IMG/VR virus record: IMGVR_UViG_3300046804_002051
Span: 1-59,716 of that record
Source of the DNA: a virus
Length of the DNA: 59,716 bases
Direction: 5' to 3' (one strand)
Shown here: positions 2,821-59,146 of the stretch, in pieces
Layout: every line of letters starts with the position of its first letter
How positions within the stretch are numbered: position 1 is the first letter of the stretch
Program-made: the position numbers and the translations under genes
Notes under the pieces: model-generated
What the model saw: only the letters and a program-made list of their open reading frames with translations
What the model was told of the DNA's origin: nothing
Database searches by the model: none

Positions 2821-4080
2821 TTAAAATCTTCTAAACATATTTCCCTTAGAAAGTTTTCTAGGTTGTGATGTTGAAGAAGGTCTTCTTGGTTCATCATCAT
2901 ACTGATTATTTACAGAAGAATTAATTTTTCTTGATTCCTCTGTTTTTAATTGTCTGACTGTTTTTTCTACTGCTGCTTTACTTCCTTGTTCTCTTACTCT
3001 GTTTTTGTATCCATTTGGATCAGCAAGTAACCAAAGTGCTTCTGCAATTAGGTCATGTCTTGGTTCTACAAACTGATACTTCTCTAATAAGTGACCAAGT
3101 AAGTTAGTTGGTTTTCCTGAAATAGAAGGATAGTTTGGTTGTACTAGTCCGGAGAATAATAAACCTTGAACTTTTCTATCTAATTTAAGACCACCAATTG
3201 TTCCATTAGCAAGAGTATTGTAAACATTTTCTTGATATGCTTTTGCTTGTTCAGCTTGCATATTTCTTCGATGTTCTTGTTCTGCTAGTTGTCTTGCAAC
3301 AATTTCTTCTTGCATTGCATCTAACTTAGGTTTAAATTGATTAGCCTTTTGTTCAAGTCTGTTAAGATCTTTCCAGTCTTGAATTTCAGATTCAATTTCT
3401 TCAGGAGTTCCAAATTGAGTAGCATATAAATATTGTCTTGCAATTTCAGCTTGATCATATTCATCAGTTGGATCAAGTTGTCTCATTTCTTCTACATGAG
3501 CTAAAGTTCTAAATAAACCTTTAAGATCTTGTCCACCATCAGCTACATATTTAGCTGCAACTTGAAGTTCTTCTGGTAATGATTGAAAAAACTCTCTTGG
3601 AGTATTTTCTCTAATTTGATTTTCTCTTTCTTGAAAGTTAGCTTCAAATAACTCTCTGAAATCTTTAGTAGTATATTCTTCTAATGGTTTGTCATCATCA
3701 AAAGGAATAAGTGTACCTTCTTCAATCATTTTAGTTGCTAAATCAGCAAGACCAGATTTATCTACTTTAGGTCTTCCTTTATTACCAGCTTCTTCTTCTT
3801 GAGAAATAAGATTGTCAAGTTCATTGATAGTTTCTTGAACTTCTGTTTTTTTCTCTTGAGCTTGTTGTCTTTCCTCTACAGTAGCAGTAGGATTGTCAAA
3901 GAACGATGTATCAACTGTTTCTTTATGAAACATTGATTTTGGTTTTTCTTCTTCACCTTGTGGGAGCATAACATTTTCTGCTCCGGGCATTCCAAAGATC
4001 TCATCAATATTTACATCTACCTGTTCTACCGTTGTAGAATCTTGGACCTGATTTTCAGGATTTGTGTTGGTTGTATCCAT
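2821..4080 (-). CDS. Probable capsid scaffolding protein
   Basis: This 419-residue protein is strongly acidic in its first 250 residues, with Gln/Glu-rich predicted coiled coils (around residues 70-95 and 250-285), and ends in a short basic tail (KLSKGNMFRRF). Acidic helical body plus a basic C-terminus that can bind the capsid protein is the usual design of phage scaffolds, and the gene lies exactly between portal and capsid. No protease signature is visible. Transcription may start at the TTGTATATTGATA box 21 bases upstream of the start codon. The function is inferred from composition and gene order, not from a recognised family motif. Confidence 0.6.
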   Translation of the reverse strand: MDTTNTNPENQVQDSTTVEQVDVNIDEIFGMPGAENVMLPQGEEEKPKSMFHKETVDTSFFDNPTATVEERQQAQEKKTEVQETINELDNLISQEEEAGNKGRPKVDKSGLADLATKMIEEGTLIPFDDDKPLEEYTTKDFRELFEANFQERENQIRENTPREFFQSLPEELQVAAKYVADGGQDLKGLFRTLAHVEEMRQLDPTDEYDQAEIARQYLYATQFGTPEEIESEIQDWKDLNRLEQKANQFKPKLDAMQEEIVARQLAEQEHRRNMQAEQAKAYQENVYNTLANGTIGGLKLDRKVQGLLFSGLVQPNYPSISGKPTNLLGHLLEKYQFVEPRHDLIAEALWLLADPNGYKNRVREQGSKAAVEKTVRQLKTEESRKINSSVNNQYDDEPRRPSSTSQPRKLSKGNMFRRF

Positions 4081-4100: not shown

Positions 4101-4113
4101 TATCAATATACAA
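4101..4113 (-). promoter_or_regulatory. Candidate late promoter box upstream of the scaffold-like gene
   Basis: The minus strand reads TTGTATATTGATA 21 bases before the ATG. It is a close variant of TTGTATATTATA found 25-26 bases before two other leftward gene clusters (13801-13812 and 19901-19912). Spacing and recurrence suggest the -10 region of a late promoter; there is no experimental support. Confidence 0.45.
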
Positions 4114-11483: not shown

Positions 11484-11812
11484 TAACCTCTTTTTAATTT
11501 TTTACCTGTAGCAGGTGCTGATGCTTCAGGTTTTTGTACAGGTCTTGGTGGTACTACTGAATCTTGTCTAAGATCTTCTCTTTCATCTTCATCATCTAGA
11601 TCAGGACCTTGAGCAGCAGCCATCATACCAGCATAATTTAACTGCATAGTTGCTCTTTTATATCTTGCTTCTTCAATCTCAGTTAATAATTTTTCATACT
11701 TAGATTGTGCTTCAAGATATGGAAGAGATTTTTCATAAAATTGTTTCATTTCATCTCTTCTTGCATCTAATTCTTCAGGAGTTAGTTGCTCCTCATTTTG
11801 TTGGTTTTTCAT
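11483..11812 (-). CDS. Short coiled-coil protein, unknown
   Basis: A 109-residue charged protein: residues about 10-60 form an amphipathic Glu/Lys/Arg helix, followed by an acidic patch (DLDDEDEREDL) and a Pro-rich disordered end with basic residues (GKKLKRG). It is the first gene after a terminator/promoter boundary and so opens the packaging operon. This composition fits a small structural or scaffold-like protein, but nothing recognisable supports a specific role. Confidence 0.8.
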   Translation of the reverse strand: MKNQQNEEQLTPEELDARRDEMKQFYEKSLPYLEAQSKYEKLLTEIEEARYKRATMQLNYAGMMAAAQGPDLDDEDEREDLRQDSVVPPRPVQKPEASAPATGKKLKRG

Positions 11813-11835: not shown

Positions 11836-11843
11836 CAAATATA
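11836..11843 (-). promoter_or_regulatory. Candidate promoter (-7 box TATATTTG) for the packaging operon
   Basis: TATATTTG on the minus strand matches the Bacteroidota -7 consensus TAnnTTTG exactly and lies 23 bases before the ATG of the first gene of the packaging block. A hairpin terminator for the upstream operon lies 32 bases further upstream. No clear -33 TTTG is present at the right spacing. Confidence 0.45.
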
Positions 11844-11874
11844 CAAGAAAAGTTTAAACTAGAAATATTTAAAC

Positions 11875-13507: not shown

Positions 13508-13775
13508 GTCTATTATTTATTATAAATAGTTTTACTGCATCTGATAATTCACTTACATTCTTTGCTAAGTTTTTAATCTCAAGCTGTGTAAGTTCTTGTA
13601 GTGCTTGATATTTAATTTGATTCTCTTGTTGTACTAGTTCTATTTTACCTTTTAATTTTCCTTGTTCTTCTGTGTTTTTTCTAACATCAGAGTGAATCAT
13701 TTTTAAAAAGTATCCAAATATAGCAAAAACTAAACTTGCAATAAAAATTATAAGAGTCATTATCCAACTTTCCAT
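13500..13775 (-). CDS. Membrane-anchored coiled-coil protein, lysis-associated candidate
   Basis: Ninety-one residues with one N-terminal membrane helix (residues about 4-25, MTLIIFIASLVFAIFGYFL) followed by a long coiled coil rich in Glu, Lys and Gln. The layout resembles phage spanin-like or DUF-type holin accessories. It is the first gene of the lysis unit, 26 bases downstream of a TTGTATATTATA box, and precedes the holin candidate and endolysin. The role in lysis is inferred from topology and neighbours. Confidence 0.7.
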   Translation of the reverse strand: MESWIMTLIIFIASLVFAIFGYFLKMIHSDVRKNTEEQGKLKGKIELVQQENQIKYQALQELTQLEIKNLAKNVSELSDAVKLFIINNRHE

Positions 13776-13800: not shown

Positions 13801-13812
13801 TATAATATACAA
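13801..13812 (-). promoter_or_regulatory. Candidate late promoter box of the lysis operon
   Basis: Minus strand TTGTATATTATA, identical over 12 bases to the box at 19901-19912 and at nearly the same distance (26 bases) from the first start codon. It sits in the 80-base gap between the tail gene cluster and the lysis genes. Confidence 0.5.
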
Positions 13813-19468: not shown

Positions 19469-19876
19469 TTAACAATAGTCCATTCCATAGAATGCAGTTC
19501 CATCATATAAGAAAGGAATAGCTGTAGTTCCTTCATCTACACCATGATCTGATGGTGGTGAATCTGGACCACAGTTATTAAAGTTAAGATCTCCTGAAGC
19601 AGTAATTTGATATCCACTACTTGTACTTGAGAAAGTCAAATATAACTTATCTCCAAGTCTGTTTTTTACTGAAACCACATTTAGAGTAAAGTCAACTTGA
19701 ATATCTCCTTCAAATTTTACAATTGTTTCTGGAGCTGATAAGTAAAGATTAACTGTTTCCCCTGGAGTTGTAGGTACTGGAAGAGTAATTACTTTTCTTG
19801 AACTTCTAATAAATTCAAACACGGACCTGTTAAGGTATTGCCACATGTAAATTAGTGGTGATTTATATTCTTTCAT
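19469..19876 (-). CDS. Beta-sandwich-like virion protein, first gene of the appendage operon
   Basis: A 135-residue protein with a basic, aromatic N-terminus (SPLIYMWQYLNRSVF, then RSSRKV) and a beta-rich body (TVNLYLSAPETIVKF, DIQVDFTLNVVSVKN, DKLYLTFSSTSSGYQ). It ends with FLYDGTAFYGMDYC. No family recognised. It is 25 bases downstream of the TTGTATATTATA box and thus opens the long appendage transcription unit. Confidence 0.7.
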   Translation of the reverse strand: MKEYKSPLIYMWQYLNRSVFEFIRSSRKVITLPVPTTPGETVNLYLSAPETIVKFEGDIQVDFTLNVVSVKNRLGDKLYLTFSSTSSGYQITASGDLNFNNCGPDSPPSDHGVDEGTTAIPFLYDGTAFYGMDYC

Positions 19877-19900: not shown

Positions 19901-19912
19901 TATAATATACAA
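19901..19912 (-). promoter_or_regulatory. Candidate late promoter box of the tail-appendage operon
   Basis: Minus strand TTGTATATTATA, 25 bases before the ATG, immediately after a strong hairpin terminator at 19925-19955. Identical box at 13801-13812 and variant at 4101-4113. Confidence 0.5.
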
Positions 19913-34046: not shown

Positions 34047-34229
34047 ATGGAATGTATTAAATGCGGAGCTCCGGCAACTAAAAGGTATAGTCCTGATCTT
34101 GATATCAAAGGTATAGGAATGTGTGCTGAGCATACAGATGAGATTATGATAGATCTTATGGTAGCTCAGTTTGATAAAAGAGGCTGGGAGAAGTTTGAGA
34201 AAAAGTATTTACCTAAAAAAGATAAGTAA
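34047..34229 (+). CDS. Small zinc-finger protein
   Basis: Sixty residues with CIKCGAPATKRYSP at the N-terminus and GMCAEHTDEIM later: a C-x2-C plus C-x2-H set that probably binds one zinc ion in a treble-clef or ribbon. The remainder is a basic helix ending LPKKDK. Nucleic-acid or protein binding is likely. Its stop overlaps the next micropeptide start. Confidence 0.75.
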   Translation: MECIKCGAPATKRYSPDLDIKGIGMCAEHTDEIMIDLMVAQFDKRGWEKFEKKYLPKKDK

Positions 34230-34324
34230 TGGAATTTGTAATTGGAGCAGTTATAGTAGTTATAATTGCAGGTTTAATAATTTATAACTTAAAAGATGAA
34301 AACTATCATAACTGGGATGATTGA
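34229..34324 (+). CDS. Membrane micropeptide (31 residues)
   Basis: A 32-codon frame begins on the last base of the zinc-finger gene's stop and encodes one helix (FVIGAVIVVIIAGLIIY) with a polar, Trp-containing tail. No family can be assigned at this length. Confidence 0.5.
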   Translation: MEFVIGAVIVVIIAGLIIYNLKDENYHNWDD

Positions 34325-34374: not shown

Positions 34375-35274
34375 ATGATAACTGTAGAAGTATTATCTAA
34401 AAAATTAAATATTGCTGACATAAGAACTGTTAAGCAAATACTAGCAAATAAAGAACTTTCTGAAGAAATTGCAAAAAGAGATGTAATATCTGAAAGAAAG
34501 TTGGTGGAGGAATATCAAATTCCTCAGAGCCATTTAAGAAATCTGAAACAAAAAAATAAAATATCTTATTTCTGTACTACAGGTGAATTAAATAAAAGTA
34601 GTAGAGGATCTAAAGCTTATTATTTTGTAGATGAAGTTCAAGAAATATTTGGATATAATATTAAGTATAACAAATCATTAGTATTTAAGCATAACATATT
34701 TAATAAACTAATGGTAGATTTATCTAAGGAGTTTTGTACAAATAGGGAATCCAGATTATTAGAAATGTTACTTGTACAAAATCTATCAGTAGAAGAAATT
34801 GCTTATGAAGAAGGTGTGGGTGTTGTTAGAGCAAATGATATGATTAATAAAGCTCATAGAAGAGTACTTAGTAAGATTTATAGTCTTAAAAAAATGTTTG
34901 CTGAATGGCCTAATGAACTAGCTTATAAAACTGAAAATCAGTTACTTAAAAAACAAAATACAGAATTGTATCATAAGTTTTTAAGAAATAAAAAAAACAA
35001 AGAAGCTAAAGATTATTTGTCTCAAGATGCTGTTCAACACTTTATTAAATATGGATATGATCTTAAAGATTTAGATAAACCTATTATAGATTTTGATTTA
35101 TCTGTAAGAGCTCTTAATGGGTTAAAAAGTATAGAAATTGAAAAGCTTGAAGACTTGCTATCTTATAGTAAACATGATCTTTATTGTATAAGGAATATGG
35201 GTGATAAGAGTATAAGAGAAATCTGTGATTGGTTAGAAGATACTTATAATTGGAAATTAAAAATTAAGAATTAA
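34375..35274 (+). CDS. Sigma-70 region 4-like / RNA polymerase alpha-CTD fusion protein
   Basis: I take the ATG at 34375 (299 residues); the longer frame starts with TTG. Residues about 118-170 contain ESRLLEMLLVQNLSVEEIA and GVVRANDMINKAHRRVL, like a sigma region 4 or related HTH. Residues about 235-299 match the RpoA C-terminal domain: DLSVRALNGLKSIEIEKLED and IRNMGDKSIREICDWL, keeping the DNA-contact residues equivalent to E. coli R265, N268, N294, G296, K298 and S299. The N-terminal 60 residues contain a further HTH-like element (KLVEEYQIPQSHLRNL). It very likely redirects host RNA polymerase or marks phage promoters. Confidence 0.82.
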   Translation: MITVEVLSKKLNIADIRTVKQILANKELSEEIAKRDVISERKLVEEYQIPQSHLRNLKQKNKISYFCTTGELNKSSRGSKAYYFVDEVQEIFGYNIKYNKSLVFKHNIFNKLMVDLSKEFCTNRESRLLEMLLVQNLSVEEIAYEEGVGVVRANDMINKAHRRVLSKIYSLKKMFAEWPNELAYKTENQLLKKQNTELYHKFLRNKKNKEAKDYLSQDAVQHFIKYGYDLKDLDKPIIDFDLSVRALNGLKSIEIEKLEDLLSYSKHDLYCIRNMGDKSIREICDWLEDTYNWKLKIKN

Positions 35275-35278
35275 TGAG

Positions 35279-35530
35279 ATGACAGAACAAGAATTAATAG
35301 ATCTTGGCTTTGATAGAGTAGATATACTTGATGATGAAAGCCAAAATGGATATGATTACTATTACTATCATAAAGAGTTATGTTCTGGAGTACTTTTACA
35401 TAGTACAGATAATATTGATGTTGTAGGTGATAAATGGGCTTTAAAATCATTTGAGATTCCGGCATTAAATATTATAGATAAAGAACATTATGATCATTTT
35501 CTTGAAATAATGAACAATATAACTTGTTAA
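35279..35530 (+). CDS. Small conserved phage-type protein, unknown
   Basis: Eighty-three acidic residues starting TEQELIDLGFDRVDIL, then Tyr-rich GYDYYYYHKEL and a C-terminal helix. Small proteins with a T-x-x-E-L-x-x-L-G-F start are frequent next to replication genes in Bacteroidota phages. Two bases separate its stop from the next start codon. Function unknown. Confidence 0.75.
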   Translation: MTEQELIDLGFDRVDILDDESQNGYDYYYYHKELCSGVLLHSTDNIDVVGDKWALKSFEIPALNIIDKEHYDHFLEIMNNITC

Positions 35531-53170: not shown

Positions 53171-56100
53171 TTAATTTCCTTTAGCTTGGTTTTTAAACTG
53201 ATTTTCAAATGATGTTACTGGATCTCCAGTAGAGCCAGTAAATCCTACTGCTTTTCCTAATTTATTCCATAATTTTAAATCTCCTTTCTCTTTCCATGAG
53301 TAAGGACCTGTGTCACGTTTATATCTATCCATTTCAGAGAAAGTAACAAAATCTAATACATCTCCAAAGATATCAATATAAAGAACAATAGTATTATACC
53401 ATGCACTTGTTGTTTGAGTTAGCATTTTTGTATAATCATCTGCTCCAAAATTTACTCCTTTTATAGATGGAAGTGGAACAAAGGCAGAGGTTTCTGCTTG
53501 TACACCCATCATTAATAATAACATGTGATTTGACATAAATCCATATGTATTAAAAGTATCTTGATTAATTGCACCGGATTTACCTCTTAGTTTTTTCCAT
53601 TTTTCATCATCATCTGGATCAAATCCAAATATCATTAGACCCAACAATGCAAGACCAATTGCAAAGAATGCTTCAGTAGAAAGTTTTCTAACTGCAGTTT
53701 TTTCTTGATCTGTGAGATAATTATAATTTCTAAAACCTGATTTTAATGTCTTTAACATTGCTTGAAATGCTGTAATATAAAATCCTTTTCCATATGATGT
53801 AGTTGCCCAATCATATCTCTCACCACCTCGTGTCCAACCAATAGTTTTGGAATCAAATCCGAATCTATTCATCAACATAGGAGTAAACCATTTTCTCATG
53901 AAGAAGAACATTCTATAGAGAAGTAGTTTATTACCTTCAGGTTGACCCATTTCATCATAAGCTCCAAACAATTTACGGGACGTACCTTGTATTCTATTTT
54001 TTAATCCCATAAATAACTCTGACTTAGATATAATAAGTTCTTGACCATCTTCAAGCTGCACTTCAGATTTAATTCTGTTCTTAGCTTTTAATTCTTCTAC
54101 AGGAATATAATATTTCTTAGCAATACTTTCAAGACTTTCACCTTTGGTATATTCATGATATACTGGTAAGTTACTCCATCCTGGATGTATACCCGGTTTC
54201 AATCTGATGATACCTTCTTCATCTTTTTCCCAAGCTTCAATATATCTTAAAGTCTTTTTAGAACCATCACTCATAACTTGTTCTACTTTTTGACCATACA
54301 TGAAGGCTCCAAATAAAGACATTGCAACTTGCATCTCACCAAACTTTCTGTGCATGTACATCCACTCCATATTAACAAGATCTTTTATCATAGATCTTTC
54401 TACTTCTCTACCAAATTCATCTTTAGTTTTGAAGTTAGGATCAAAAATTTGTACAAGTTGAGTTGATATGGCTCCAGGTCCAGTTTGGTAAATACCTTTT
54501 GTACTCCATTCTAACATAGCTTTTTCTGCCCAAGGTCTTGCTAATGCAATATCTTTAAGATTTATAAACTCGGCACCTGAACCTTCAATAATTAACTGTA
54601 CATATGCACCATACTTGTTTTTTAAATCTGATGGAAGATTGACAGCTAATGAACCTCTGGCTGATAAACCTTGTATTGTATTTACCCATTTACTAAATTG
54701 TGGATGAGTTTCTTCAATACCCTCAACCATTTTACCATGATATTCTCTTTCAATAAGTGATTTAACTTGACCAAGACGGTTGTTAGTTGCAAATTTTTTC
54801 TTTGCAAATGTTAGAGCTCCTTTTAAACTATAAATATTTTTATCAAACTTTTCTAAGTCTTTTGGAGCATTATCAGGATCTTCTAATGTATCTAGTATGG
54901 AATTAACAAGAGGTAAACTCTCTAAGAGTTTTCCCTGTGTCTGAATAGACAATGCATACTTAAACAGACCCTGGAATATATCAGCATCTTGATTTTCTAT
55001 TTCAAGATTATAAATACCAGATACTGGAATATAACTAATTTGATTACCATCAAGATCCGTATTAACTAAGTTATTATTTGGATCATAGTTAAACTCATTA
55101 GCAAGTGCATACTTATCAGATGTTCTTTCAGAGTCTGTAACTGATCTACCAATTAACTGTTTAGTCCATTCTTTAATGTTACTTCCAATTTCAGAAAATC
55201 TAGAACCATAACTTGCTTTTTGTAATGATTGCCAGATATCTCCTTTTTTAATTGAATATCTTGGCATGTCAAGGTAGAGTTTACTATAGTTACTCATACC
55301 TTTCTGATTCTGTAGATGATATTCTTTGATTGCTTCGAGTAATTCAAACTCTGCAGAGTTACTTGCTTGCATTTGAAAATATCTCTCATTCATAAATCTA
55401 TTATCCTTAGCACTGTATTTTTGGCCAGGTTGGAACATTCTTGGTAGCCATTGATTTTTATTATCAACATATTTACCAACGTAATCTTCTTTAGAAGCAG
55501 CAAAAGGAATTGTTCTATATTGATCTTTAACTTCATATCTTGAATGTCTAGCATTTGGAACACCCATTAAAACAACTTCATTACCTTCTCTATCAAGAAT
55601 TTTTGTAAACTTAATATAACTTGAGTCTCTTGGAATTGCTACACTATTTGCTTTTGTTCTTTTATATTTTGGAACATAACCTCTTGATTTTTTATCATAT
55701 ACATTAATTGTATAATGATTAAGATTAAACCATTCTTTAAATCCTTCATCAGCATCTAATATATCTTGAAACTCATCAGAGTTAATATACTCATCAATTT
55801 CATCTGCATCAAGTTCTTTAATGTTTTGTTTAGATAAATTATAGTTTAATGCTTCTATGTAATGTGTAGTAGGTAAATTTTCAGTAAGCTCAGATAATTC
55901 AGAAAATATTTCTTGTATTCTTGCAGCATCTGCAGGATTAATACCTTCTTTTTCCTGCATATCTAATAGATAAAAATATCTTCTAGATTCTGCAGAACCA
56001 GCTTGTAATAATCCTTTTCTTGCCTTATATGATAATTCATTTAACTCCTCGGCATCTTCTTTAGAGAGACCGGTGGACATATCATATTGAAACTTGAAGT

Positions 56101-59100
56101 CTGCAATAGCTTGTTCTGTATCTTTAATTTTTTCAAGTCTTGTTTTACCCATAGCAGCACTATCAGGTTCACCTTGTTCATCTCGATAGCTATATATTAA
56201 GTCATTTATTGTTTGGAATGCTGCGGCAACATCAAATCTAGATTTTGCAACTTCATTCATTTTTGCTTGAAGTTCTCTTAATTCAGTAATTAATCCAATT
56301 CTAGAGTTCCAATATTCTTCATCAAACTCCATTCTGAGGTTTTGTCTTCTCCATTTCTCAAGTTCAGTTCTAAATTCTGCTGATCCAGGGAAAATATTTT
56401 TAGTTGCAAGTCCATCTACAAATTCATTGTAAGCACTCTGTAACATACCTTCAATCGGTCTCCATTCATAGAATCCTTTTGTAGCTGCTCTATGTTCTAA
56501 TAGAACTTTAGCAATACTTAGGTCATATACATTTCTAGATGGGTCATCTATTTTAGGTGTACCATCTTCATATGTCAGTGAATACAACTGTTGGAACTCT
56601 CTAAATGCAGCTTGTATAGTAGAATACTTTTCAAATCTTTCAAGCTCATTTTCCATGGAGTTTACCAAGTTATTAAAAGCTTGAAGTTTTTGTTTTCTTA
56701 CATAGTATGCTAATTGACCTACCTCAGAGTTTTTAAAGATATCATCCTTCTCATAGAACTCAGGAACAAACTCCTGCCACATGTAATCTTTTTTAAATTC
56801 ATCAAACTCCATTTGAGCTTGAGCAATTTTATTGACATCTTCTGTTTTCTTTGCTTCATCTAAGTTATACTCTAACAAGTCATAATGATATCTATAGTTT
56901 TTAAAAGCACCAAGATAACTCCATACTTCTTTTTCAACCGGTTTACCAGTTTGTTTATCAACCCAGAATACTTTGTCTTTGAATCCCATCTTCTCTCTCA
57001 TTGCAATGGAATTCATTTTGCTAAAGCCTACTTTAGGTAATAGTTTTTCAAGCTTACCTCTAAACTTCATAGACTGTTCCCAAACTAAATTCTGCACCTG
57101 AGTCTTTTCATTCTGAATAAACATAGCTAATGGACCCACTATAACATCATTACTAGAACTATATGATTCTAACCATCTATTAAACCAGGTAACATCATGA
57201 GCTCCTCCAGTAAGTGCAGCTTTAATCTTATCTTCATCAACAACCATCTCTTTATATTCTTTCAAGAAACCACTTAGGACATCTGAAGGAACACCTTTTT
57301 GTATTAATGCATTTACATCTTCTTCAGTAAGTTTTTGCTCAACTACTTTGTTATATAAATCATTTACTTCACGTTCTAATTGTTCTGTTGGAAATGTTTG
57401 TTTTAAAGCAATACCTAAATTAGTACGAAGTCTATCCTGAACATACTTAGACATATATCCAGTAATTTCTACATAAAACTGAACATTATTATTTTTTAGA
57501 ATTGTAGCAATGTTTGTATTGATTCTAGTAATATTCAGTACTATTTCATTTAAAGTTTTATAGAATGGATTAGTAGTATCTACAAATCCTCCTTCTAATG
57601 TCAATGCCTCATCAATTTCTTGTATCATTTTTAACCAAGCCTTTGAATTAGATTTATAAAGCATCAACAATGCAATAGTACTTCTGTTATTAATGTTAGC
57701 TTTAGCAAGTTTAGATATATCCATCAACATGTTCTTTGTCATACTGTTGATTGTATCCAAACTATTTACCAGTGCAGTAGCTCTTTGAAGATCTACATCT
57801 AGTTCTTCTTTAGCACTATCTAATGCATTTTGTATGAGTTCATTTTCAGACTTACCTTCAATATTTGCATCTAAGTTCTCTCTTAAAGTTCTTACAACAT
57901 CACGGATATATCTATTAGTACCTTTTTCAAATATTGATTCTTTCAATAATTTTCTAGATGCTTTGTCTCCTTTAAATGCTTCAACTTCAGATAATATTCT
58001 TTTAGTTGTTTCAAATGTACTTCTAACAACTTTTTGCATAGACTCTTTATTAGAAAACTTGTTTAGTTCCCGGGCTCGTTCAACAACTTCTCTGGAAAAC
58101 ATTGCAAGGTCTTCTTCATTTACTCTATCTGTTTTAAAGTCAAAGTCTTTATCCAAGAGCATATCTGCCATCTCCTCTAATGAAGTATCCACATCTAACT
58201 TGGCTACATCTATTTTATTACCAAATAGTTTTCTAAAGAACTGTTTGATTGCAGCGAGAAGTTTATTCATAAAGTTTTTATACCCTTCAGTTTCAATGTC
58301 ATTATTGATTCTGTTAAGAGCCTTTAACTGCATTGCATATGCTAATACTTCTTCCTTAAATAGATCTGAGTTTTCTTCAAGTTCTGGATAGTTGTTTACT
58401 ACATAGTAATAGATACCCTGACCTTCTTCAGTAGAGATTGCTTGATTGTAGAGATTCTGAAATAGGATGTTGTTGGTCTGTCTCAATGCGTTCAAGACCG
58501 GGTGTGAGAATTCGTGTAGTACAGTTCTCACATTAACATTATCTCCTACTACATAAACTGTACCTGCATAGTAAAATGCTGGTTCTCCGTTATACTTAAC
58601 TGGTCTGTTCTTTAAAATATCTGCAGCTTGTTCAGCTGTTACGTTTCTGAATTGTGTATTAGTACTGAGTGATAATCTTTGAGCAAGTACTTCGGCAATT
58701 TCTTTTGATCTTTGATCTTGTAATTGTTCAAGATTAACATTCATAAATAATACTCCATTGATTTCTTGAAGAGTAGGATCTATTTTAGATTCTATTATCT
58801 CTTCCTCAGATTCAACAGGAAGATCTCTCATCATCATTGGTTGATCAGGTCTGGCGTTAAATAACTGCTGGAGTCTTTCAAAGAGTTGGACGTTAGGTTC
58901 AGCTCTTAATATTCTTACCTTAGCATCTCTATAGTAAGTTGATCTATATGGATCAATATGTTCGGACATGTTTACACTAAATAGTTTATTACCATTAGTT
59001 TCAAGACCGTACTTTAACTCTGCTGCAGCAGTGAGTTTATCATTTAATTCATCAAATAATTCTTCATTGATGATTCTTCTGATATCATCAGTTGCTCCTT

Positions 59101-59146
59101 TTTTTTCTAGATACTTTATAGAGTTTATTTTTACGTCACAAACCAT
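53171..59146 (-). CDS. Giant virion-type protein with HExxH, LysM-like segment and hydrophobic C-terminal helix
   Basis: The 1991-residue product is mostly helical and charged. Residues 208-218 read TVLHEFSHPVL, an HExxH zincin motif (H211, E212, H215). Residues about 1662-1712 contain HEYTKGESLESIAKKYYIPV and LEDGQELIIS, a LysM-like peptidoglycan-binding unit. Near residue 1835 there is a hydrophobic helix FFAIGLALLGLMIFGF. Long coiled-coil regions lie between. The layout (protease-like head, cell-wall-binding part, membrane-active tail) fits an internal or ejected virion protein of a large podovirus-like phage. No RNA polymerase D-x-D-x-D motif is present. Convergent to the replication arm. 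Confidence 0.8.
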   Translation of the reverse strand: MVCDVKINSIKYLEKKGATDDIRRIINEELFDELNDKLTAAAELKYGLETNGNKLFSVNMSEHIDPYRSTYYRDAKVRILRAEPNVQLFERLQQLFNARPDQPMMMRDLPVESEEEIIESKIDPTLQEINGVLFMNVNLEQLQDQRSKEIAEVLAQRLSLSTNTQFRNVTAEQAADILKNRPVKYNGEPAFYYAGTVYVVGDNVNVRTVLHEFSHPVLNALRQTNNILFQNLYNQAISTEEGQGIYYYVVNNYPELEENSDLFKEEVLAYAMQLKALNRINNDIETEGYKNFMNKLLAAIKQFFRKLFGNKIDVAKLDVDTSLEEMADMLLDKDFDFKTDRVNEEDLAMFSREVVERARELNKFSNKESMQKVVRSTFETTKRILSEVEAFKGDKASRKLLKESIFEKGTNRYIRDVVRTLRENLDANIEGKSENELIQNALDSAKEELDVDLQRATALVNSLDTINSMTKNMLMDISKLAKANINNRSTIALLMLYKSNSKAWLKMIQEIDEALTLEGGFVDTTNPFYKTLNEIVLNITRINTNIATILKNNNVQFYVEITGYMSKYVQDRLRTNLGIALKQTFPTEQLEREVNDLYNKVVEQKLTEEDVNALIQKGVPSDVLSGFLKEYKEMVVDEDKIKAALTGGAHDVTWFNRWLESYSSSNDVIVGPLAMFIQNEKTQVQNLVWEQSMKFRGKLEKLLPKVGFSKMNSIAMREKMGFKDKVFWVDKQTGKPVEKEVWSYLGAFKNYRYHYDLLEYNLDEAKKTEDVNKIAQAQMEFDEFKKDYMWQEFVPEFYEKDDIFKNSEVGQLAYYVRKQKLQAFNNLVNSMENELERFEKYSTIQAAFREFQQLYSLTYEDGTPKIDDPSRNVYDLSIAKVLLEHRAATKGFYEWRPIEGMLQSAYNEFVDGLATKNIFPGSAEFRTELEKWRRQNLRMEFDEEYWNSRIGLITELRELQAKMNEVAKSRFDVAAAFQTINDLIYSYRDEQGEPDSAAMGKTRLEKIKDTEQAIADFKFQYDMSTGLSKEDAEELNELSYKARKGLLQAGSAESRRYFYLLDMQEKEGINPADAARIQEIFSELSELTENLPTTHYIEALNYNLSKQNIKELDADEIDEYINSDEFQDILDADEGFKEWFNLNHYTINVYDKKSRGYVPKYKRTKANSVAIPRDSSYIKFTKILDREGNEVVLMGVPNARHSRYEVKDQYRTIPFAASKEDYVGKYVDNKNQWLPRMFQPGQKYSAKDNRFMNERYFQMQASNSAEFELLEAIKEYHLQNQKGMSNYSKLYLDMPRYSIKKGDIWQSLQKASYGSRFSEIGSNIKEWTKQLIGRSVTDSERTSDKYALANEFNYDPNNNLVNTDLDGNQISYIPVSGIYNLEIENQDADIFQGLFKYALSIQTQGKLLESLPLVNSILDTLEDPDNAPKDLEKFDKNIYSLKGALTFAKKKFATNNRLGQVKSLIEREYHGKMVEGIEETHPQFSKWVNTIQGLSARGSLAVNLPSDLKNKYGAYVQLIIEGSGAEFINLKDIALARPWAEKAMLEWSTKGIYQTGPGAISTQLVQIFDPNFKTKDEFGREVERSMIKDLVNMEWMYMHRKFGEMQVAMSLFGAFMYGQKVEQVMSDGSKKTLRYIEAWEKDEEGIIRLKPGIHPGWSNLPVYHEYTKGESLESIAKKYYIPVEELKAKNRIKSEVQLEDGQELIISKSELFMGLKNRIQGTSRKLFGAYDEMGQPEGNKLLLYRMFFFMRKWFTPMLMNRFGFDSKTIGWTRGGERYDWATTSYGKGFYITAFQAMLKTLKSGFRNYNYLTDQEKTAVRKLSTEAFFAIGLALLGLMIFGFDPDDDEKWKKLRGKSGAINQDTFNTYGFMSNHMLLLMMGVQAETSAFVPLPSIKGVNFGADDYTKMLTQTTSAWYNTIVLYIDIFGDVLDFVTFSEMDRYKRDTGPYSWKEKGDLKLWNKLGKAVGFTGSTGDPVTSFENQFKNQAKGN

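Follow-up and report, generated by a model that had tools for sequence, protein, structure and literature searches.

An accessory phage protein family that joins a sigma region 4-like domain to an RNA polymerase alpha C-terminal domain

The stretch of DNA analysed here, which we refer to as the window, is a 59.7 kb viral record from IMG/VR. It encodes a crAss-type major capsid protein at positions 1171-2790 (Pfam Crass_capsid, 1.5e-30), along with portal, terminase and DNA polymerase genes, and its gene order is collinear, in both the early and the late regions, with that of a 120.7 kb relative, G408. As G408 extends some 50 kb past the window end, into a region coding for giant virion-type proteins, the full phage genome is probably of approximately 120 kb, of which the window would make up about half. 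The hosts of the window virus are of Bacteroidota type. The nearest match of the capsid protein in a named phage is from Leptolyngbya phage Lbo-JY46 (28.8% over 99%), a cyanobacterial phage according to its record.

The gene of interest lies among early and replication genes and codes for a protein of 299 amino acids. Its reading frame opens with an ATG at 34375 and its stop codon ends at 35274; starting instead from the in-frame TTG at 34321 would lengthen the product by 18 residues. The gene and the parts of its product are as follows.

34375..35274, plus strand: fusion coding sequence, 299 aa (P0001); open reading frame with full-length relatives 48-97% identical, dN/dS 0.16-0.31
34375..34668, plus strand: N-terminal domain, residues 1-98; AlphaFold (AF2) model of this part alone, pLDDT 81.7, pTM 0.73
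34705..34902, plus strand: sigma-70 region-4-like domain, residues 111-176, with the helix-turn-helix (HTH) at about 138-163; profiles and AF2
34903..35061, plus strand: predicted helical, possibly coiled-coil linker, residues 177-229; AF2, low confidence
35062..35271, plus strand: RNA polymerase alpha-CTD, residues 230-299; PF03118, target TM 0.92 to 1z3e_B, contact residues

A reading made from the sequence alone had proposed that this frame joins a sigma-4-like HTH to an alpha-CTD. The open reading frame, the PF03118 match and the profile comparisons described below bear this out, and both domains are almost certainly present in the fusion protein; what had been overlooked was the N-terminal domain, the predicted helical linker and the replacement of the -35-contact residues. 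The gene is under purifying selection, with dN/dS values of 0.31 and 0.16 against two relatives, and the corresponding values for the alpha-CTD stretch are 0.20 and 0.10, which indicates that this domain is among the most constrained parts of the protein.

Residues 230-288 match Pfam RNA_pol_A_CTD (PF03118) with E=2.3e-17 and a score of 62.9 bits, passing the curated cut-off of 23.8. The nearest solved structures for the C-terminal domain are the C-termini of RpoA, and the AlphaFold model, in which most of the domain reaches a pLDDT of about 80-86, has the alpha-CTD fold, superposing on 1z3e_B (Foldseek) with a target TM of 0.92 and 1.2 A rmsd. For this domain, then, the predicted structure does not refute the sequence-only reading, as a missing (HhH)2 fold would have done. 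The residues that contact UP-element DNA had been said to be kept, and indeed all six equivalents were found: E. coli R265, N268, N294, G296, K298 and S299 correspond to R245, N248, N274, G276, K278 and S279, and K271 corresponds to K251. The equivalents of R265, K271, N294 and G296 are invariant across 10/10 family members; in the same ten, those of N268 and K298 are nearly invariant and the S299 position varies conservatively. Acidic residues are also found, at D239 and D241, at positions that match the sigma-region-4 contacts of RpoA, where these acidic alpha-CTD positions touch sigma region 4. No alpha-NTD was matched in the Pfam search of the fusion protein, in which only the CTD was recognised, and the RpoA equivalog models covered the C-terminus alone and scored far below their cut-off.

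The sigma-4-like HTH is weak in the window protein alone. None of the Pfam sigma families matched this protein at E<=10, and its match to the PHROG 'sigma factor' family was weak (E=0.011). Two proteins that are 50 and 61% identical to it (L014 and L020) matched Sigma70_r4 at 1e-4, and the rumen phage proteins L015 and L016 did so at 1.3e-8 and 4.4e-8; against the Sigma70_r4 (PF04545) cut-off of 24.1, clade members scored 22.2 and 21.5 and the distant members exceeded it. A profile restricted to the clade matched region 4 of RpoD, represented by three Bacteroidota sequences, at 97.4% with P=1e-11. When a profile of the whole family was used, the middle domain matched bacterial ORFs with E-values down to 1e-11, all three of those examined being primary sigma factors, and sigma region 4 was found among solved structures at 6e-9. 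In the AF2 model the pLDDT of this domain is 73-90 per block. We conclude that, by these profile comparisons, the sigma-4-like HTH is firm for the clade, and the earlier claim of such an HTH is upheld by way of the clade profile.

In sigma70, the residues that read the -35 element are R584, E585 and R588. Alignment to the RpoD profile places V150, V151 and N154 of the window protein at these positions, which are thus not kept, and R586 is retained as R152. The rumen proteins L015 and L016 and the gut protein L024, on the other hand, retain the equivalents of R584, E585 and R588. With its -35-contact residues replaced, the HTH of the window protein may not read DNA in the way that sigma does; the fold is still sigma-4-like, and its DNA reading has probably changed. 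Sigma region 2 was also sought in the fusion protein with Pfam, and gave no match.

AlphaFold modelling of the full protein gave a pLDDT of only 63.5 overall. A model of the first 112 residues (scores as listed above) shows a small confident domain in the first 98, in which helices are followed by elements in the order helix-helix-strand-strand-helix, and this arrangement suggests a resemblance to a winged HTH. A Foldseek search of the domain against the PDB returned no significant match. Two rumen and human gut phage relatives show an HTH_17 at the N terminus, scoring below threshold; assignment of the N-terminal domain to HTH_17 by homology was not confirmed, as a profile comparison with the HTH_17 of the distant members gave no match. 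The linker is mostly helical in the models, at low confidence, with an AF2 helix at 178-205, and carries a TENELLKKQNTELY-type sequence common to the clade.

Within the phage group of the window, full-length relatives of the fusion occur on viral contigs. Beyond this group, rumen and human gut phages have proteins of only 19-24% identity with the order N-terminal domain, sigma-4, linker, alpha-CTD, in which, unlike the window copy, the -35 residues have for the most part been retained. The genes and relatives of the L015 and L016 viral contigs suggest a rumen source, and the human faecal phage scaffolds MT835636 and MT837876 encode proteins that are 27-30% identical over more than 90% of L015. 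A profile search of 395 Bacteroidota genomes, a sample in which rare prophage copies could have been missed, found no fusion at E<=1e-32, a cut-off set without a positive control; the point that the fusion is not cellular is therefore carried by a tally of PF03118 matches. Only 22/395 genomes have a second PF03118 match, of which one is strong, one is moderate (a 113-aa ORF) and the rest are weak. The strong one (E=7.7e-16, G363:C1:1419627-1419806) lies in a 986-aa open frame and is not RpoA-sized. Scanning the genome contigs with a rumen protein found nothing, and scanning them with the family alignment found only RpoA, as judged by eye from the proteins. A cellular origin for the whole fusion was accordingly rejected, the 395 genomes showing RpoA plus only weak or unlike second matches. 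Since the architecture recurs in phages and was not found in these genomes, the fusion is, on present sequence evidence, a phage protein family.

The distribution of the gene among related phages was then compared at its point of insertion, designated site A, which has the following neighbours.

34047..34229, plus strand: left neighbour, insertion site A, 60 aa; adjoins the homologue of the 35279 gene in relatives without the fusion, for example G408
35279..35530, plus strand: right neighbour, insertion site A, 83 aa; flanks the empty site in relatives without the fusion

In G408 the homologue of the 34047 gene runs directly into that of the 35279 gene with the flanking sequence still recognisable, giving a clean empty site, and a search of all 120.7 kb of this genome at E<=0.1 gave no match to the fusion. 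Among 80 syntenic early loci around the 31895 gene, the fusion is present in five, and site A is usually empty where both neighbours are visible. One of eight relatives of 85 kb or more carries the fusion and seven do not; these are linear contigs of uncertain completeness, and G408 spans both site A and a second site, B. At site B, found in other phages, the fusion lies between the homologues of the 28427 and 28836 genes, a place that in many relatives holds either a ParB-like protein or nothing. Site B is a swap site within the early region. We conclude that the fusion gene is accessory and occupies two sites in the early region.

This position raises the possibility that the protein serves in replication, segregation or DNA modification, its alpha-CTD being merely an (HhH)2 DNA-binding module. 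The gene does sit among replication genes, and the substitute at site B in many relatives is a protein of about 250 aa with a ParB-like DGQH motif (for example L231:630-1380 and L271:5125-5872) and a weak Pfam ParBc_2 match (E=0.09). However, the domain is specifically alpha-CTD-like and not a generic HhH, it is paired with a sigma-like HTH, and a common site need not mean a common job. We regard such a role as improbable.

The fusion had further been named the best candidate for the late-gene switch that reads the TTGTATATTATA boxes. The boxes in the window are located as follows.

19904..19912, minus strand: late box TTGTATATT, 36 nt to the start codon of the gene starting at 19876
13804..13812, minus strand: late box TTGTATATT, 37 nt to the start codon of the gene starting at 13775
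11838..11846, minus strand: late box TTGTATATT with TG after it, like the host -7 element, 34 nt to the start of the gene at 11812
4105..4113, minus strand: late box TTGTATATT, 33 nt to the start of the gene at 4080, which adjoins the capsid gene

It can be seen that all four copies are intergenic and on the late strand, always as T[TC]TTGTATATT, and lie 33-37 nt before start codons. The same pattern was found in 80 terminase-related loci (L113-L192), where 68 of the 69 late-strand copies are intergenic and most stand 32-39 nt ahead of a start codon; on their opposite strand there are 15 copies, 12 of them inside genes. In thirty non-redundant contexts the box is preceded by an A/T element, T[CT]AA..TTT, and followed by a TA, both of them conserved. 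The -7 element of Bacteroidota is TAnnTTTG (PMC6847099); the box core resembles it, matching exactly in one promoter class, and there is no evident -33 TTTG. The boxes proposed earlier thus hold up as real elements (intergenic, late-strand, conserved and at a constant distance from start codons), and the TTGTATATT box is a genuine late-promoter element, conserved across a large phage group. It gives direct experimental access, separate from the fusion, to late transcription in this group.

The role given to the fusion at these boxes did not survive. Were it to recognise the TTGTATATT boxes and bring host RNA polymerase to every late promoter, it ought to be present in any phage that uses these boxes. 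In favour of such a role, the boxes are real, conserved in relatives, almost confined to the late strand and at a constant distance from start codons, and the lack of an evident -33 TTTG together with the conserved upstream A/T element makes an extra factor plausible. However, G408 has four boxes before its late genes, 26-33 nt from the start codons, with no fusion anywhere in the genome and a cleanly empty site A; the rarity of the fusion, both in the syntenic loci and among the large relatives, of which 7/8 are without it, also speaks against the idea, as does the loss of the -35-reading residues from the sigma-4 domain of the window copy. This presence/absence comparison shows that the late boxes are independent of the fusion, and since they are kept in relatives that lack it, the fusion is an optional addition, and we now consider very unlikely that it acts as a master switch for late genes.

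Having neither a sigma region 2 nor an alpha-NTD, the fusion can be neither a complete sigma factor nor RpoA, and could not stand in for a polymerase subunit, so that any part it plays in transcription must involve host RNA polymerase. That it acts in transcription is probable. More specifically, we put at about even the chance that it is an accessory promoter-recruitment factor working on host RNA polymerase, assembled from parts of the holoenzyme. The domains, the alpha-CTD fold with its contact residues, the purifying selection, the accessory distribution and the independence of the late boxes are findings; DNA binding, RNA polymerase docking, activation, dimerisation and the target promoters are inferences. 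The free protein would probably be a dimer through its linker, the N-terminal domain would probably bind DNA, and the intact alpha-CTD and the HTH domains would place it on A/T-rich DNA upstream of certain promoters. Docking might be through the acidic face of its alpha-CTD on host sigma region 4, or through its sigma-4-like domain on the beta flap of host RNA polymerase. Transcription by the host enzyme would then be strengthened or redirected at a subset of promoters, most likely those of the early/middle programme because the gene lies there, with accessory control of early/middle or host genes as the outcome. A search for an early-promoter motif in the window found no early-region word enriched over shuffles and so gave no target promoter, which counts against this model.

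No observation separates activation from repression. As a repressor or agent of host takeover, the free alpha-CTD/sigma-4 module would occupy UP/-35 DNA or compete for host sigma region 4, dampening host or competing phage promoters, including in superinfection exclusion, without activating phage genes. A free alpha-CTD with all of its DNA-contact residues could compete against the host alpha-CTD, and genes for host interaction are typically accessory and tend to swap position. However, a free alpha-CTD alone binds DNA only weakly, and a simple competitor would need no N-terminal domain, sigma-4-like domain or conserved linker. We consider this reading unlikely. More broadly, and only tentatively, the recruitment factor may represent a transferable single-chain promoter-upstream module of sigma-4-like domain and alpha-CTD, gained and lost by Bacteroidota phages, which would re-aim host RNA polymerase and whose sigma-4 DNA-reading surface would have re-evolved in each lineage.

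Outside the holoenzyme, the alpha-CTD and sigma region 4 do not normally come together on promoter DNA. In PDB 3n97, which was among the matches in both the structure and the profile searches, the same two domain types sit side by side on one stretch of UP/-35 DNA, although as separate chains and not as a single one. This arrangement, with both modules being real, makes it reasonable to suppose, as the sequence-only reading did, that the fusion could bridge host RNA polymerase to promoters, apart from the late-switch role. Such a single-chain protein would offer a natural way to ask to what extent promoter recognition can be uncoupled from RNA polymerase, in Bacteroidota, a phylum with divergent promoters. 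No published description of such a fusion was found in the open-access literature, a negative that is weak evidence.

Compared with known systems, the C-terminal domain is like the RNA polymerase alpha-CTD in sequence, fold and DNA-contact residues, but is detached from the alpha-NTD, joined to other domains and carried by a phage. The middle domain is like region 4 of RpoD/SigA in fold and profile, but no region 2 was found with it, and its -35-contact residues, largely retained by the relatives from rumen and gut, are replaced in the window copy. T4 MotA/AsiA (PMC2988021) offers a possible functional parallel: the fusion would likewise be a phage factor that binds DNA around -35/UP and redirects the host holoenzyme, but is built of copies of polymerase domains and encoded by an accessory gene. 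Stand-alone phage alpha-CTD proteins, which likewise lack an alpha-NTD, have already been annotated in uncultured Caudovirales phages, Rhodococcus phage Finch and Bacillus phage Goe8 (QDP42789); the Goe8 protein, the only one compared here, differs in showing no recognised sigma-4-like domain.

Some further proteins were noted in passing. Those at L028:1959-2591 (Bacillus phage Goe8) and L023:3860-4207 end in an alpha-CTD with no recognised sigma-4 domain. A phage-encoded RNA polymerase that might lie in the half of the genome missing from the window was sought, non-exhaustively, among four giant G408 proteins and none was seen. A 3040-aa protein of G408 (L200:92-9211) has SF1 (Dda/PIF1-like) helicase and AlkB-like 2OG-Fe(II) oxygenase domains, and a 1991-aa protein of the window (53171-59146), which carries the metallopeptidase-like motif HEFSHPV and matches LysM weakly, is poorly conserved (22-43%) among phages that are otherwise alike.
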